The notes beneath the pieces were generated by a model. It was not told the DNA's origin and searched no databases. It saw only the letters and a program-made list of their open reading frames with translations. A DNA stretch of 64,000 bases from Ectothiorhodospira lacustris (GTDB taxonomy: Bacteria; Pseudomonadota; Gammaproteobacteria; Ectothiorhodospirales; Ectothiorhodospiraceae): NCBI RefSeq assembly GCF_022227845.1, contig NZ_JAJNQN010000019.1, positions 1 to 64,000 of the forward strand, given 5' to 3'. Positions 8,406 through 52,773 of the stretch are shown piece after piece; the first letter of the stretch is position 1; the number at the start of each line of letters is the position of its first letter. The translations under genes and the position numbers were made by a program.

Positions 8406-9323
8406 ATGCCACCCTTGTTTGCGCTGCATCGCATGAAGCTGCTGACGCTGCTTTTAGTGTCGAATTTCGGTTTGATGCTGCACCTGTCCGCCGGCGACAT
8501 GAAGCCGCTGTCGGTTTGGGATTGGCTGGATATTGTCGGCGAGGGCGGCTCAGCGATGCTGCTGCTGATATGGATAGGCCTACTGTTGAAGAGTCGTCCG
8601 GCAGGGCGGGTGACCGACCTGCTGTTCGCCGGGCTCGGTTGCCTGTTCTTTTCGTTATTGATGGATCTGGCCGACGAATTCGTGAGGATGCCGGACAGCG
8701 TCAGTTGGGACGCATGGCTGGAGTCCGGTCCCATGCCGGTGGGTTTTATCCTGCTTACGTTGGGTATCTATCACTGGCATCGGGAACAGCTGGCGATCAG
8801 TGCTCAGATGCGTAATCGGGAACGGTTGTATCGTGAACATCTTCACTTTGACACGTTGACGCCCCTGGGGGGGGCGACCTATCTCAAAAATCAGATTGAG
8901 ATGAGTATCAAGCAGGCAGTGACAGAACGGCAGCCCTTGTCACTGATCATGCTGGATATCGACGCGTTCAGTGTGATCAACCGAGATTATGGTCAGGCTG
9001 AAGGTGATCGTGTACTCCAGGTGATTACCCAGCTGGTACTGCTGAATCTGCGCGAGCATGATCTGCTCTGTCGTCTGGCAGGCGATCGCTTCGTGATTGT
9101 CTTGCCCAATACGTTGGAGTCCCAGGCAGCGGCTATTGCCCACGATCTGGCGTTGTCGATCAAGCATCTGGCCTACCGAACCATCCTGCAGGGTGAGCGG
9201 CTGGCGCTGAGTGCCACCACCGTGGCCGTGATGGCCAGACAGGAAGGTGCGGAGTGCCTGCTGGAACGACTAAACACACGTCTGGCCCATGCCAAGCAGA
9301 CGTCTTTGTTCCGTAGCGCATGA
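8406..9323 (+). CDS. membrane-bound GGDEF-domain protein, degenerate
   Basis: The 305-residue protein has about four to five N-terminal membrane segments (roughly residues 8-125), a short linker and a C-terminal GGDEF fold (about 145-300). DTLTPLGGATYLKNQ replaces the usual DxLTGLxNR segment, IMLDIDAFSVINRDYG is the conserved metal-binding strand, and the signature loop reads AGDRF instead of GG(D/E)EF. The arginine in the loop suggests weak or no cyclase activity, so it may bind GTP or act as a sensor. The frame is open 61 codons further upstream; the ATG at 8406 is chosen because GGAGG lies 5 bases before it. It overlaps the next gene by 4 bases, so the two are probably translated together. 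Confidence 0.8.
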   Translation: MPPLFALHRMKLLTLLLVSNFGLMLHLSAGDMKPLSVWDWLDIVGEGGSAMLLLIWIGLLLKSRPAGRVTDLLFAGLGCLFFSLLMDLADEFVRMPDSVSWDAWLESGPMPVGFILLTLGIYHWHREQLAISAQMRNRERLYREHLHFDTLTPLGGATYLKNQIEMSIKQAVTERQPLSLIMLDIDAFSVINRDYGQAEGDRVLQVITQLVLLNLREHDLLCRLAGDRFVIVLPNTLESQAAAIAHDLALSIKHLAYRTILQGERLALSATTVAVMARQEGAECLLERLNTRLAHAKQTSLFRSA

Positions 9324-10366
9324 ACGCGGGCGCGGTCCGGCAACGGGCATGGTATGAGCGGGAGGCGCGCTTTATTCCGGCGCATCATCAGCCTGCTGGC
9401 TTGATTGATCTGGCCCTGATGCGCGGGATAGAGAGCCATCGCCTGTTGCGCGGAACGGGCCTGTTTTACCAGGATATCCTTGGCGGTCGGCAATTCATCA
9501 GTGCGGAACAGTTCCTGCGACTGATCGACAACGTTCGGCAACTGCGGGGCGGTGATGACTGCAGCTTTCTATTCGGTCAGCAGTTGCTACCGGGCCACTA
9601 CGGTCATGCCAGTCATGCGTTACGTCATGCACAGGACCTGCAACAGGCCCTGGATCGACTGGTGTTGCTGCGGCGCAGGCTTTCACCCTTGCTGACGCCA
9701 CGCGTCAGAGTCGATGACAGGTACGTGTATCTGCACTGGTTTGACAGCTGTGGCGCGGGCGCGCGCGAGGTGTTTTTGATGGAGGCCTGCATGACCGCCG
9801 TGACCGCCATGTGTCGGTGGTTGTCTGGCGGTCCTTTGCCCTGGGAATACCAACTGCGTCATTCGCAACCTGATTATATTGAGCAGTACTGGGTGCACCT
9901 GAGTGAGGCGGTGCGCTTCGGCTGCCCGCAGAATGTGATGCGATTACCGTGCGAGTATCTGTTCAAACCCTGGCCGCACGCCTCCTTGACGGTGGGCCAG
10001 GTTGCCGAGCAAACCGGTCTTGATGAACTGGCTGCCGCAGACGAGATGGCCCCCAGCCTGCTCGAAGCCCTATTCGACTATATCCACAAGCACGTTCGCC
10101 AGCCGCTGGGGCTTGAACGCCTGGCCGAGGCCCAGGGTATGAGCGTAGCCACCCTCAAGCGCAAACTGAAGCACCACGACACGCACTTTCTGCAGCAACT
10201 GGACCAAGTCAGGACCTATGTGGCGCTGGATCTCTACCTGAGCAAGGGTTTTACCAGTGATGAGGTGGCGACCTATCTGAACTTTAATGACAAGGCGAAC
10301 TTTCGCCGATCTTTCAAGCGCTGGACCGGCTTGCTGCCCAGCGAGGTGCCGGGCCGGTTGGCCTAA
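9320..10366 (+). CDS. AraC-family transcriptional regulator (OruR-like)
   Basis: The 348-residue protein has an N-terminal ligand-binding domain of the arabinose-binding-domain-of-AraC type found in OruR/ArgR-like regulators (about 15-205) and a C-terminal double helix-turn-helix (about 245-345) with LERLAEAQGMSVATLKRKLK and the FNDKANFRRSFKRWTG signature of AraC proteins. It probably regulates a nearby or distant operon in response to a small molecule. Its ATG lies within the stop codon region of the GGDEF gene (ATGA overlap), so membrane sensing and regulator are coupled in translation. The ligand is unknown. Confidence 0.87.
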   Translation: MNAGAVRQRAWYEREARFIPAHHQPAGLIDLALMRGIESHRLLRGTGLFYQDILGGRQFISAEQFLRLIDNVRQLRGGDDCSFLFGQQLLPGHYGHASHALRHAQDLQQALDRLVLLRRRLSPLLTPRVRVDDRYVYLHWFDSCGAGAREVFLMEACMTAVTAMCRWLSGGPLPWEYQLRHSQPDYIEQYWVHLSEAVRFGCPQNVMRLPCEYLFKPWPHASLTVGQVAEQTGLDELAAADEMAPSLLEALFDYIHKHVRQPLGLERLAEAQGMSVATLKRKLKHHDTHFLQQLDQVRTYVALDLYLSKGFTSDEVATYLNFNDKANFRRSFKRWTGLLPSEVPGRLA

Positions 10367-10786
10367 AAATCAACAGCCCCCCATCGAGTCAGCTTAAACG
10401 GGATATGGAGTTGGTAGGTGGTTGACAACCAGAGGCGACGGCCTTCTTCCTGGGTGTCTGTGGGCGGATGGAAAGTGACAAGTCCGATGCCTTAAAGTGG
10501 ACCCCATCGTTGGACCCCTGACAGGCTCTGAGAAGTGAAATCCGGTGCCTCGGGGTTTCATGGATCCGGCATGGAGGTCCAGTGGACTTCATCCGGGGTT
10601 TGTTGGTCAAGTCCCCTGTGGGGCCGGTAGTTGTTGTTGAACTGGATGTGGTCTTCCAGCCCCAGCTCAGCATCACGCCCGAGTTGGTGGACGCCGTGTT
10701 CGACCTTGGCACTAAGCGCGATACCGCACATCAATGCTCGGGCTGACGTGCTATACCGATCATGCGCCATGTTGGAGGATTTCAGG
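10367..10786. other. intergenic region with insertion-sequence debris
   Basis: This 420-base stretch between the AraC regulator and the baeRF gene contains the transposase remnant described separately. The segment near 10480-10560 has the look of the end of an insertion sequence (a repeated GGGGTCC/GGGTCC motif), but I cannot define inverted repeats or a target duplication. The ribosome binding site GGAGGA of the next gene is at 10774-10779. Confidence 0.5.
10558..10665 (-). pseudogene. remnant of an IS3-type integrase-core transposase
   Basis: The last 35 codons of a short minus-strand frame read HIQFNNNYRPHRGLDQQ then TPDEVHW, which is the C-terminal signature of rve-type (IS3/IS481) transposases (usually YNxxRPHxxLxxxTPxEVY). 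Nothing upstream resembles the DDE catalytic core, so this is a truncated relic. It lies just in front of the baeRF gene and may mark a past rearrangement that brought that gene here. Confidence 0.6.
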
Positions 10787-11947
10787 ATGCTAATGAACAG
10801 TGTCAACCAAGACGCCGCCGCGGGGCTATGGGATGAATGTGGTCCGCCTTGCCTTTCGCTTTTTCAACCGACGCACCGAAATCATCCGGACAATCAGCAG
10901 GATCCGATACGCTTCAAGAATCTGGTGAAAGTGCTGGAGGAATCCCTGCGGCAAAAGTTTGAGTGCGACGAGATCCAGCCCTTGCTCGAACCCATGCTGG
11001 CCCTCGCTGAAGATCACGACTTCTGGAACTGCACTTTCGACGGACTGGCAGTGTTGCGTGACAAAAATATGTTGCGGGTCTACAAGCTCCAGCGCCCCGT
11101 CGCCGAACTGGCGGTGGTGGCGGACAGCTTCCACACCAAGCCCTTGCTGCGCATCCTGCAATCAGCAGATCGGTACCAGGTACTGGCTTTGAACCGGCAC
11201 GAGATGAGATTGTTCGAGGGGAACCGCGATGCCCTGGACGAGATCGCGCCCGCCGATGGCGTGCCGCGGACGATCACCGAGGCGCTCGGTGAAGAACTCT
11301 CTGATCCCCGCCAGACGGTCTCGGCCTACGGCGGCACCGGCGGCGGCCAGGCCCCCATGCACCATGGTCATGGCGGCAGAAAAGACGAACTGGATCATGA
11401 CGCGGAGCGATTCTTTCGTGTTGTCGATCGGGCGGTCCTCGAACACCATTCCAAGCCCTCCGGCCTGCCATTGATTCTCGCCGCCCTGCCGGAGCACCAT
11501 CACATGTTCCACAAGCTCAGCCACAACCCTTGTCTGATTTCCGAGAGCCTGGACGTGCATCCGGATGCGCTCGCATCGACCGACGAGTTTCGCGAGCGGG
11601 TCTGGCAAACCATTGAGCCCCGCTACCTCGCGCGTCTGGCGGGGCTGGTGGAGACTTTCGGCAGTCACAAGTCCAAGGGCCTCGCCGCCGACGACCTGGC
11701 AGAAGTGGCCCGGGCCGCCGTGGGCGGGCGCGTGGCTACCCTGCTGATTGAAGCGCGCCGGGAAATCCCCGGTCGGGTCGATGGGTCGACCGGGGAGCTT
11801 GAATTCGATGACCTCTCCCACCCGGAACTTGACGATGTGCTCGACGACTTGGGCTCAGTAGTGCTCAAGATGGGTGGAGAGGTGGTCGTCGTGCCGCCGG
11901 AACGGATGTCGACTGAAACGGGAATCGCCGCAATCTATCGCTACTGA
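10787..11947 (+). CDS. bacterial aeRF1-like protein, baeRF family 3
   Basis: The 386-residue protein matches the bacterial archaeo-eukaryotic release factor (baeRF) family 3 in its order of parts: an N-terminal segment with LSLFQPTHRNHPDN, an RFKNLVKVLEESL helix, VLRDKNMLRVYKL and DSFHTKPLLRI, a glycine/histidine loop at 181-197 (TGGGQAPMHHGHGG), a helix FFRVVDRAVL and a C-terminal domain with ATLLIEARREIPG. These proteins are relatives of eRF1 and Pelota and are thought to act at the ribosome A site; a related bacterial protein, Balon, binds dormant ribosomes. The start at 10787 is chosen because GGAGGA lies 7 bases before it. The next gene is an HPF-type hibernation protein 10 bases away, which supports a ribosome role. 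The exact function is unknown. Confidence 0.75.
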   Translation: MLMNSVNQDAAAGLWDECGPPCLSLFQPTHRNHPDNQQDPIRFKNLVKVLEESLRQKFECDEIQPLLEPMLALAEDHDFWNCTFDGLAVLRDKNMLRVYKLQRPVAELAVVADSFHTKPLLRILQSADRYQVLALNRHEMRLFEGNRDALDEIAPADGVPRTITEALGEELSDPRQTVSAYGGTGGGQAPMHHGHGGRKDELDHDAERFFRVVDRAVLEHHSKPSGLPLILAALPEHHHMFHKLSHNPCLISESLDVHPDALASTDEFRERVWQTIEPRYLARLAGLVETFGSHKSKGLAADDLAEVARAAVGGRVATLLIEARREIPGRVDGSTGELEFDDLSHPELDDVLDDLGSVVLKMGGEVVVVPPERMSTETGIAAIYRY

Positions 11948-11957
11948 GGCACGTGAC

Positions 11958-12275
11958 ATGCTCATTCAAATCAATACCGATGACAACGTCAGTCATTCCA
12001 ATACGCTGATGGAGTGGATCGAAACCACGCTCACAGAGGTGCTGGAGCGCTTTGCGGATCAGGTGACGCGTCTGGAAGTTCACCTCAGCGACGAGAACAG
12101 CGACAAGAAATCCGGCGGCTCCGACATGCGCTGCCTGTTGGAAGCCAGGCTCAAAGGCCGCCAGCCCGTCGCCGTGACCGATGCAGCGCCGACCGTGGAG
12201 CAGGCTGTCGACGGTGCAGTACACAAGATGAGGCGTTCCCTGGACAGCACCTTCGGACGGCTGAATAAGCGCTGA
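11958..12275 (+). CDS. HPF/RaiA-family ribosome-associated protein, short form
   Basis: The 105-residue protein begins MLIQINTDDNV, continues with a helix LMEWIETTLTEVLERFADQV, a strand LEVHLSDEN and CLLEARLKGRQPVAVT, and ends in a helix with AVDGAVHKMRRSLD. This is the beta-alpha-beta-beta-beta-alpha plan of HPF/RaiA (sigma-54 modulation protein family), which binds the small-subunit decoding channel of resting ribosomes. GAGG lies about 8 bases before the ATG. It follows the baeRF gene by 10 bases and is followed by the CrtA-like gene after 21 bases, so the three are probably one transcript. The low similarity to E. coli HPF leaves its exact class open. Confidence 0.82.
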   Translation: MLIQINTDDNVSHSNTLMEWIETTLTEVLERFADQVTRLEVHLSDENSDKKSGGSDMRCLLEARLKGRQPVAVTDAAPTVEQAVDGAVHKMRRSLDSTFGRLNKR

Positions 12276-12296
12276 ACACCCACGGCGCCCCCCCAC

Positions 12297-13052
12297 ATGT
12301 CGACCGATCGCGTCATCTTCAGCTTTTTCCGTTATCCGCTCGGCTACAGTCCGGTCGCCTTCCTCTTTATGGGTTTTCGCCGCCTGTTCATCGGCCCGGA
12401 TGTGCCCGTTGGCGATATCCGACTCATGGGCTGCGGCGGCGGCGATGGCTTTTCGATCCTGCCCGATCCGCGCACCTACTGCCTGTTAAGCGGGCTACCC
12501 GATCCTGCCGATGATCAGCGTCTACGGCAAAGTCGTTTCTATCAGCGCATCGCCGCACCCAGTCAAGCACAACTGCATATCGAACTGCAGCCGATCTCGG
12601 GTCACGGCACTTGGGATGGGCGCGAGCCGTTCGAGTACAGCGGCGAGCGTGCAACGGGTGGGCCAGTCGCGGTCCTTACCCACGCACGCGTGCGTAACAA
12701 CCGGCTGCGGTCCTTCTGGCGCGCCGTGCCGGCGATCCGCCGGCACCTGCGCCAAACCCCTGGTTGCCGGTTCCATATCGGTTTTGGTGAGGGGCCGGTG
12801 CGCACGCTGGCCACCTTCAGCCTGTGGCAGGATGCCGAGCAGATGCGCGCCTTCGCCTACCACGAGAGCCCGCACCATCGCACCCTGCGTGCAGCACGTC
12901 AGGAGGATTGGTTCTCGGAGTCAATCTTCGTGCGTTTTCGGGTGCTGAATGTTACCGGCGATCTCAGTGCCTGGTCGCCGCGCTCAGCGCGAGAGGCGTT
13001 GCCTGCTCAAGGAATCGATCCACACGTTGTGAGAACGACAGCCGATGACTAG
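12297..13052 (+). CDS. crtA: spheroidene monooxygenase-like protein (CrtA family)
   Basis: The 251-residue protein shows the CrtA pattern: GGGDGFSILPDPRTY, then FYQRIAAPSQAQL, GTWDGREPF, GPVAVLTHARVRNNRLRSFW, FHIGFGEGPVRTLATFSLW and a C-terminal histidine-rich HESPHHRTLRAARQEDWF. CrtA is a haem-type monooxygenase that adds a keto group at C-2 of acyclic carotenoids such as spheroidene or spirilloxanthin. The family length is usual. The start has no good ribosome binding site, so it may depend on the upstream HPF gene. It converges on the detached pufB2A2 pair and lies about 24 kb from the main crt genes. CrtA-like proteins also occur in non-phototrophs, so the substrate is inferred. Confidence 0.72.
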   Translation: MSTDRVIFSFFRYPLGYSPVAFLFMGFRRLFIGPDVPVGDIRLMGCGGGDGFSILPDPRTYCLLSGLPDPADDQRLRQSRFYQRIAAPSQAQLHIELQPISGHGTWDGREPFEYSGERATGGPVAVLTHARVRNNRLRSFWRAVPAIRRHLRQTPGCRFHIGFGEGPVRTLATFSLWQDAEQMRAFAYHESPHHRTLRAARQEDWFSESIFVRFRVLNVTGDLSAWSPRSAREALPAQGIDPHVVRTTADD

Positions 13053-13994: not shown

Positions 13995-14071
13995 TGGCGC
14001 GCCCGGAAGGATTCGAACCTCCGACCACCTGGTTCGTAGCCAGGTACTCTATCCAACTGAGCTACGGGCGC
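13995..14071 (-). tRNA. tRNA-Arg (anticodon ACG)
   Basis: The minus strand folds as a complete 77-base tRNA: acceptor stem GCGCCCG/CGGGCGC, D arm with AGCTCAGTTGGATAGAGT, anticodon stem-loop CCTGG-CTACGAA-CCAGG with ACG at positions 34-36, T arm GGAGG-TTCGAAT-CCTTC, discriminator G and an encoded CCA. It is followed by a strong terminator. Confidence 0.96.
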
Positions 14072-50955: not shown

Positions 50956-51780
50956 ATGTCCATGCTGAGCTTTGAGAAAAGATACCGCGTACGCGGGGGG
51001 ACGTTGATCGGAGGCGACCTATTTGACTTCTGGGTCGGGCCTTTCTACGTCGGATTTTTTGGGGTCCTAACGGCGTTTTTCGCGTTGTTGGGTACACTCC
51101 TGATCGTCTGGGGTGCGGCTATGGGCCCAACCTGGAACATCTGGCAGATCAGCATCAATCCCCCCGACCTGAGTTACGGCCTTGGCTTTGCACCCCTGGC
51201 TGAGGGTGGTCTTTGGCAGATGATCACGATCTGTGCCTTGGGCGCATTCGTCTCCTGGGCGCTACGCCAGGCTGAGATTGCCCGCAAACTGGGCATGGGT
51301 CTGCATATCCCGATCGCCTTCTCTGTGGCGGTCTTTGCCTATTTCACGCTGGTTGTCATTCGCCCGGTGCTGCTGGGTGCCTGGGGCCATGGTTTCCCCT
51401 ACGGCATCATGAGTCACCTGGACTGGGTGTCCAACACTGGTTATCAGTTCCTGCATTTCCACTATAACCCGGCTCACATGCTGGCCATCGCCTTCTTCTT
51501 CACCACGGCTCTGGCGCTTTCACTGCATGGTGGTCTCATCCTGTCCGCTACCAACCCCAAGAAGGGTGAACCGGTCAAGACGCCTGAATACGAAGATACC
51601 TTCTTCCGTGACGTCGTCGGCTATTCCATCGGTGCCCTCGGCATTCACCGCCTGGGTCTGTTCCTGGCCCTCAGCGCCGCCTTCTGGAGTGCCGTCTGTA
51701 TCGTCATCAGCGGTCCTTTCTGGACGCAGAGCTGGCCGGAATGGTGGAACTGGTGGCTTGACCTTCCTATCTGGGCTTAA
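50956..51780 (+). CDS. pufL: photosynthetic reaction centre L subunit
   Basis: The 274-residue membrane protein has five helices and the family sequences [37 protein letters not shown] and [22 protein letters not shown], with histidines for the special pair, accessory chlorophyll and iron. It binds the primary donor and QA/QB iron together with PufM. Confidence 0.98.
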
Positions 51781-51795
51781 TGTAAGGGGACCACA

Positions 51796-52773
51796 ATGGC
51801 CGAATACCAGAACATATTTAACCGGGTGCAGGTCCAGGCAGAGCCTGAGGCTGGCGTACCCTTGCCGAATGGTGATCGCGAACGCATCGGGAAACCGCTG
51901 CTGTTCTATTGGGCCGGCAAACTAGGTAACGCCCAGATTGGGCCGATTTACCTGGGCTGGACCGGATTGGCATCCATCATGTTTGGTTTGATGGCAATCC
52001 TGATCATTGGTTTTAACTTCCTGGCCCAGGTCAACTGGGACGTCATTCAGTTCATCCGCCAGCTCTTCTGGCTGGGACTGGAGCCGCCGCAGGCGCAGTA
52101 TGGTCTGGGCATTCCTCCGCTGGCCGAGGGCGGCTGGTGGCTGATGGCCGGCTTTTTCCTGACCACCTCCATCCTGCTGTGGTGGGTACGGATGTATCGT
52201 CGTGCACGTGCGCTGAACATGGGTACCCATGTGGCCTGGGCATTTGCCGCGGCGATCTTCCTGTATCTGAGCCTTGGCTTCTTCCGTCCGATCCTGATGG
52301 GCGACTGGTCCGAAGCAGTACCGTTCGGCATCTTCCCGCACCTTGACTGGACCACGGCATTCTCTCTGAAGTACGGCAACCTGTACTACAACCCGTTCCA
52401 CATGCTCTGTATTGCTTTCCTGTATGGCTCTGCTGTGCTGTTTGCCATGCATGGTGCAACGGTGCTGGCCGTGGGCCGGTATGGTGGTGAACGCGAGCTT
52501 GAGCAGATCACCGACCGTGGTACGGCTTCCGATAGAGCAATGCTGTTCTGGCGCTGGACCATGGGCTTCAACGCCACCATGGAATCCATCCATCGCTGGG
52601 GCTGGTGGTTCGCGGTTCTCGTACCGATCACCGGCGGCATTGGCATTCTGCTCACTGGCACGGTAGTCGACAATTGGTATCTGTGGGCGATCGACCACGG
52701 CGTGGCGCCGTCTTATCCGATCGTACATCCGAACGTCGAAGATCCGGCCATGCTTCAAGGGATGTCTCAATGA
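51796..52773 (+). CDS. pufM: photosynthetic reaction centre M subunit
   Basis: The 325-residue protein has five helices with [19 protein letters not shown] and [20 protein letters not shown] and the C-terminal [20 protein letters not shown]. It pairs with PufL. Its stop codon overlaps the pufC ATG by 4 bases. Confidence 0.98.

Follow-up and report, generated by a model that had tools for sequence, protein, structure and literature searches.

The window analysed here, a stretch of 64,000 nucleotides of Ectothiorhodospira lacustris DNA, carries on its forward strand a baeRF gene followed closely by a short HPF gene. The baeRF ORF (10787..11947, +) is read from an ATG at 10787 to a stop codon ending at 11947 and encodes 386 amino acids, and a GGAGG at 10774-10778 lies 8 nt 5' of the ATG; the gene is complete and has its own ribosome binding site, as had been claimed. 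The program-made ORF list places the start of baeRF at a TTG at 10631, and the resulting 438-aa ORF was rejected as the baeRF gene because its 5' part overlaps an insertion sequence remnant and has no similarity in the relatives. The start codons of the baeRF relatives line up with 10787, and blastn similarity to the Thioalkalivibrio and Wenzhouxiangella loci begins only at 10709-10713, with a later onset confined to L005/L024 and the partial L030. The stretch at 10709..10786 (+) is a 5' leader shared along with the gene pair, and according to blastn and the leader alignment it contains the GGAGG and a conserved CGTGCTATAC block. No sigma-70 consensus promoter was found in this leader. A conserved RNA element in it was also rejected, since single-sequence folds are unlike among the relatives and an Rfam search over the window gave tRNA only.

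The HPF gene (11958..12275, +) starts with an ATG at 11958, exactly 10 bases past the baeRF stop as predicted, ends with a stop codon at 12275 and is preceded by a Shine-Dalgarno-like GAGG that overlaps the baeRF stop codon. Its 105-aa product scores 39-40 bits on Ribosomal_S30AE (PF02482; cut-off 23.7), well within the domain family, and 23.9 bits on the HPF/YfiA equivalog TIGR00741 (cut-off 40.9), which marks a divergent S30AE subfamily. A chance ORF was considered and discarded, because relatives occur in many genomes, the amino acids are conserved and the confident predicted fold resembles solved HPFs. The AlphaFold2 model (pLDDT 87) shows the beta-alpha-beta-beta-beta-alpha HPF fold, and the top Foldseek matches of this model are HPF/RaiA/pY structures. 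Chain v of 7m4z, the HPF observed on the Acinetobacter baumannii 70S ribosome, is the closest solved relative both by sequence (E 2.5e-21) and by fold (first Foldseek match, E 7e-11, TM 0.86), and it shares the TD-N, SDEN and C-EAR signatures; 8rd8_D, the RaiA on the Balon-bound ribosome, ranks fifth.

The A. baumannii gene, whose product is identical to the compared 7m4z_v segment at 98 of 98 residues, differs from the gene in the window in its surroundings: in the record examined, its neighbours are allantoinase, ankyrin-repeat and transporter genes, with no baeRF. Since the 7m4z_v gene does not lie beside baeRF in that record, the linked HPF subfamily can bind ribosomes without a baeRF neighbour. 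The idea that this subfamily is always accompanied by baeRF is contradicted by A. baumannii and by three further genomes (G205, G241 and G399). In addition, the E. lacustris genome contains a second, canonical hpf gene beside rpoN (G000:C46:136147-136419). The two proteins share the S30AE domain and a similar length, but the canonical copy scores 105 bits on PF02482 versus 39 for the linked copy and occupies a separate locus, and it is missed in a search with a profile built from the linked subfamily. The HPF beside baeRF is a second, divergent paralogue, of a subfamily distinct from canonical hpf.

The baeRF protein scores 167 bits against Pfam baeRF_family3 (PF18845; cut-off 31.5), a family that also takes in Balon itself, at 106 bits. 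Its top NCBIfam match is NF052287, the AOC03_06830 family that corresponds to Balon, at 198.9 bits. Because this score lies below the equivalog cut-off of 330 bits, we name the protein a baeRF3 homologue of Balon and not a member of the NF052287 equivalog. Among PDB chains, 8rd8_B, the cryo-EM chain of Balon, matches best (phmmer E 1e-21); it was deposited under the name 'methyl-accepting chemotaxis protein' in an entry that contains the 70S ribosome of P. urativorans together with Balon and RaiA. This alignment is nearly full-length and co-linear over all three domains (window residues 19-386 against residues 13-369 of 8rd8_B). The original prediction had invoked Balon only as a related aeRF1-type protein, and the tie is closer than that, as the product is homologous to Balon itself and is predicted to be an A-site ribosome hibernation factor. 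As both proteins of the pair fall below their equivalog cut-offs (199 versus 330 for NF052287 and 23.9 versus 40.9 for TIGR00741), both are to be regarded as divergent. A search of the E. lacustris genome for baeRF family 10 gave no match. The AlphaFold2 model of the baeRF protein, built from a 7-sequence alignment, reached a pLDDT of 40 and was left out of the analysis.

Residues 28-40 of the baeRF protein, PTHRNHPDNQQDP (10868..10906, +), are the counterpart of the HP decoding-centre motif of Balon (THREHPANDQDP). In the alignment to 8rd8_B, the window segment pairs with KTHREHPANDQDP of Balon, and the HP motif, THRxHPxNxQDP in both proteins, is retained; NIKS is absent from the baeRF sequence. 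Residues 180-199, AYGGTGGGQAPMHHGHGGRK (11324..11383, +), occupy the position of the aeRF1 GGQ loop in the alignment of relatives, where invariant columns mark the segment MHHGHGG, followed by K or R, that is common to most baeRF relatives. A literal GGQ is present at residues 186-188 of this Gly-rich loop. In the alignment, however, only the window protein and its nearest relatives have this Q, and beyond that clade the position holds H, G, S or other residues. GGQ was therefore rejected as a catalytic motif of this protein, and a conserved catalytic Q is found neither here nor in Balon. What sets the protein apart from the Balon of Psychrobacter urativorans (PDB 8rd8/8rdv/8rdw; NF052287) is the middle-domain loop, which is longer, rich in His and Gly and provided with the conserved MHHGHGG segment, and which might alter how the protein meets the peptidyl-transferase centre.

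The adjacency of the two genes was followed across genomes, as the original prediction had proposed, and it is conserved in the family and recurs outside it, in further families of the Gammaproteobacteria and in one bacteroidete. Within the order, 47 genomes were searched, all of one family and including E. lacustris itself; a close baeRF (85-100% identity) was found in 6 of them, in each case with HPF 10 bases downstream, and one of these six copies (G036) is cut by the end of its contig. Both baeRF and the linked HPF are missing from the remaining nine genomes of the genus. In an even sample of 368 other genomes of the class, baeRF was detected (E 1e-8 or better) in 13 genomes and had a linked-type HPF beside it in 5, downstream at 467 (G293), 180 (G131), 26 (G132) and 44 (G227) bases and upstream in G074. 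The phylum sample added a pair in G690, again with HPF upstream, and among named genomes the pair is also present in Wenzhouxiangella (gaps of 10 and 11 bases) and in the bacteroidete Dyadobacter (53 bases). Gene order thus varies (compare loci L036 and L018 with L042 and L061), HPF lying mostly downstream, and the occurrence of both orders is most readily explained if the genes were paired repeatedly, or rearranged, under selection.

In the class and phylum samples, 6 of the 12 baeRF genes with at least 49% identity have an adjacent HPF, against none of the 11 distant baeRF genes (at most 31% identity) within 1.5-kb flanks. With the other half of the related genes lacking such a neighbour, the pairing cannot be called obligatory. 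Chance adjacency is estimated by us at approximately 0.1%, for a genome of roughly 3,000 genes with one or two copies of hpf. In the class sample, the linked HPF occurs in 7/13 genomes with baeRF and in 3/355 others (Fisher P 1e-9), a test that ignores shared ancestry, although the genomes involved belong to different families. Carriage of the pair by plasmids was considered and set aside: in plasmids, the only matches for either protein lie below 60% identity, and HPF was a neighbour in neither of the two regions examined among 15 baeRF plasmid regions. Three records filed as A. baumannii plasmids (NZ_CP077849.1, NZ_CP064203.1 and NZ_CP104448.1) are chromosome-sized, at 3.7-4.1 Mb, and are probably misfiled chromosomes.

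By superposing the window on the Thioalkalivibrio loci with blastn, the limits of the shared DNA can be defined. The similarity covers only 10709-12281, that is, a leader of approximately 75 bases and the two genes up to and including the stop codon of HPF; the flanks are unrelated. On the 5' side, the unit is abutted by the C-terminal remnant of an IS3-type transposase on the reverse strand (10558..10708, -), recognised from its translation, FNNNYRPHRGLDQQTPDEV, and from a weak match to the end of the NF033516 transpos_IS3 profile (E 0.017). On the 3' side, the unit ends at 12281 and similarity to same-genus genomes starts at 12296 with the crtA side, so the junction falls within 12282-12295. 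Fourfold-degenerate sites of baeRF are 72-77% identical to those of Thioalkalivibrio, compared with 50% for rpoN between the same genera and 64.5% for rpoN within the genus; at the protein level, baeRF is 86-89% and rpoN 54-57% identical. Because the shared DNA is sharply bounded and the fourfold and protein identities of baeRF exceed those of rpoN, the pair was most probably exchanged between genera of the family after these genera had split. The Wenzhouxiangella copy, with 82% protein identity and 48% fourfold identity, would represent an old exchange if it is lateral at all. In the Thioalkalivibrio LCM1.Bin42 bin (L005/L024), HPF is joined after about residue 53 to unrelated sequence near a contig end, which is either an insertion or an assembly artefact.

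The homologies, the retained HP motif, the fold of HPF, the conservation of the adjacency and the exchange between genera are shown by the present analysis; the mechanism proposed below takes ribosome binding, the EF-Tu contact and protection from published work on Balon and HPF. Balon binds the A site independently of mRNA, and its HP motif contacts A1492/A1913; it lies beside the peptidyl-transferase centre without a GGQ, its C-terminal domain binds EF-Tu-GDP, and it leaves room for RaiA, both having been seen on one ribosome (PMC10901736). By analogy, when the cell is stressed or runs short of energy, the Balon-type protein would enter the A site of the 70S ribosome with no need for mRNA. 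Its N-terminal HP motif would then touch the decoding centre, the middle-domain loop would lie against the peptidyl-transferase centre without peptidyl-tRNA hydrolysis, and the C-terminal domain would meet GDP-bound EF-Tu. On the same ribosome, HPF would fill the mRNA/P-site channel of the 30S subunit, and together the two proteins would keep the ribosome idle and shielded. The SD-like GAGG overlapping the baeRF stop codon suggests translational coupling, and the two genes are probably co-transcribed as well; similar expression is presumed as a step of this mechanism, and the gene pair would have been passed between bacteria as a single unit. That the two proteins occupy idle ribosomes together is the simplest reading because the baeRF3 protein retains the HP motif and the HPF belongs to a ribosome-binding subfamily. 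We put the probability that the two genes form such a ribosome-hibernation pair, as predicted from homology and published work, at roughly 80%. Points against it are the divergence of both proteins, the difference of the middle-domain loop from that of Balon, the related baeRF genes without an HPF neighbour, and the canonical hpf that the genome already has.

The original prediction left the choice between hibernation and rescue open. In a rescue role, baeRF would act on stalled ribosomes like Dom34/Pelota or an alternative release factor, and HPF would then store the freed ribosome; such roles were considered by Burroughs & Aravind (PMC6514570) and would suit both membership of the aeRF1 superfamily and the literal GGQ at the catalytic-loop position in this protein and its closest relatives. 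Outside that clade, however, the Q position varies while MHHGHGG persists, and Balon, which has no GGQ, leaves the nascent chain intact (PMC10901736). Burroughs & Aravind read a Q that is not conserved as pointing to inactivity (PMC6514570), and by this criterion peptidyl-tRNA hydrolysis by the window protein is argued against. The hibernation half of the prediction is well supported, by the homology to Balon and by the published structures with Balon and RaiA bound together (PMC10901736), and the rescue half is weak and unlikely to hold.

A functional link could also be denied altogether, the adjacency then reflecting two independent stress genes or a unit hitch-hiking passively on mobile DNA, as the abutting IS3-type remnant, the unrelated flanks among relatives and the 6 of 12 related baeRF genes without an HPF neighbour might be taken to indicate. 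This seems very improbable to us, because only the two genes are retained while the flanks change, and because the adjacency recurs in both gene orders and at gaps of 10, 26, 44, 53, 180 and 467 bases in several families and in Bacteroidota. A further proposal refines the hibernation reading and does not replace it: the linked HPF might do what the canonical HPF cannot, for example by pairing only with this baeRF or by acting only under haloalkaline or osmotic stress. The distinctness of the subfamily from the rpoN-linked hpf, its tendency to occur with baeRF, and the MgtC and MscS genes downstream of the pair in T. versutus and Wenzhouxiangella are consistent with such specialisation. It is nevertheless doubtful, since the same subfamily occurs without an adjoining baeRF in G205, G241, G399 and A. 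baumannii, where it binds 70S ribosomes, and since the window has no MgtC/MscS neighbourhood.

The baeRF-HPF pairing and its hibernation meaning are already published. Conserved baeRF-HPF neighbourhoods were reported by Burroughs & Aravind in 2019, who proposed insertion into the A site together with HPF (PMC6514570), and the window pair represents the same operon type and idea. RaiA/HPF was found to be the most frequent neighbour of Balon by Helena-Bueno in 2024 (PMC10901736), so that Balon, like the baeRF type of the window, commonly adjoins RaiA/HPF. The present case confirms, in a purple phototroph, what was predicted in 2019 and then observed on ribosomes in 2024. Where the 2019 study described a conserved neighbourhood (PMC6514570), the instance in the window is resolved as a laterally exchanged unit, and the modest addition made here is this compact unit, bounded by a short leader and the HPF stop and provided with its own second HPF; no description of such a laterally exchanged baeRF-HPF unit was found in the open-licence literature searched. 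The pair can thus pass between genera beside a resident canonical hpf. We suggest tentatively that it may be a transferable two-gene accessory module, composed of a Balon-type A-site blocker and a dedicated second HPF, which is exchanged among haloalkaliphilic bacteria independently of the core hibernation genes and which would give a dormancy mode, the MHHGHGG loop being placed at the peptidyl-transferase centre, beyond that of the resident canonical HPF alone. The names Thioalkalivibrio versutus and those of the CSBr/CSSed metagenome series presumably point to soda lakes. If the module works, it would offer a small portable system in which to test Balon and HPF acting together versus separately.

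The host is phototrophic, as had been stated, with two reaction-centre genes at 51043-52704 of the window and a crtA-type gene 21 bases past HPF. This orphan crtA-like spheroidene monooxygenase gene (12297-13052, +) scores 168 bits, below the equivalog cut-off, and occurs in 3/10 genomes of the genus; in G001 its neighbours are fap-type amyloid secretion genes and no carotenoid cluster surrounds it. Connecting the pair with phototrophy by way of crtA was rejected, as the shared unit ends at 12281 and the crtA-side similarity, from 12296, belongs beside a Fap-type amyloid gene in same-genus genomes; the crtA neighbourhood of the pair looks accidental. Among named genomes, the close relatives carrying the pair are Thioalkalivibrio, Wenzhouxiangella and Dyadobacter, which are non-phototrophic genera, and a specific link of the pair to light or phototrophy accordingly finds no support. 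On the other side of the pair lies a gene for an AraC-type regulator with an Arabinose_bd N-terminal domain (9320-10366, +), and a tRNA-Arg gene is located at 13995-14071. None of the other nine genomes of the genus has this regulator, so the stretch around the pair appears to be a mosaic of acquired genes close to tRNA-Arg. Genes for MgtC and a BON-MscS mechanosensitive channel lie directly after the pair in Wenzhouxiangella (L027 1975-3752) and after two other genes in T. versutus (L025 8868-10700), hinting at an osmotic or ionic stress setting.
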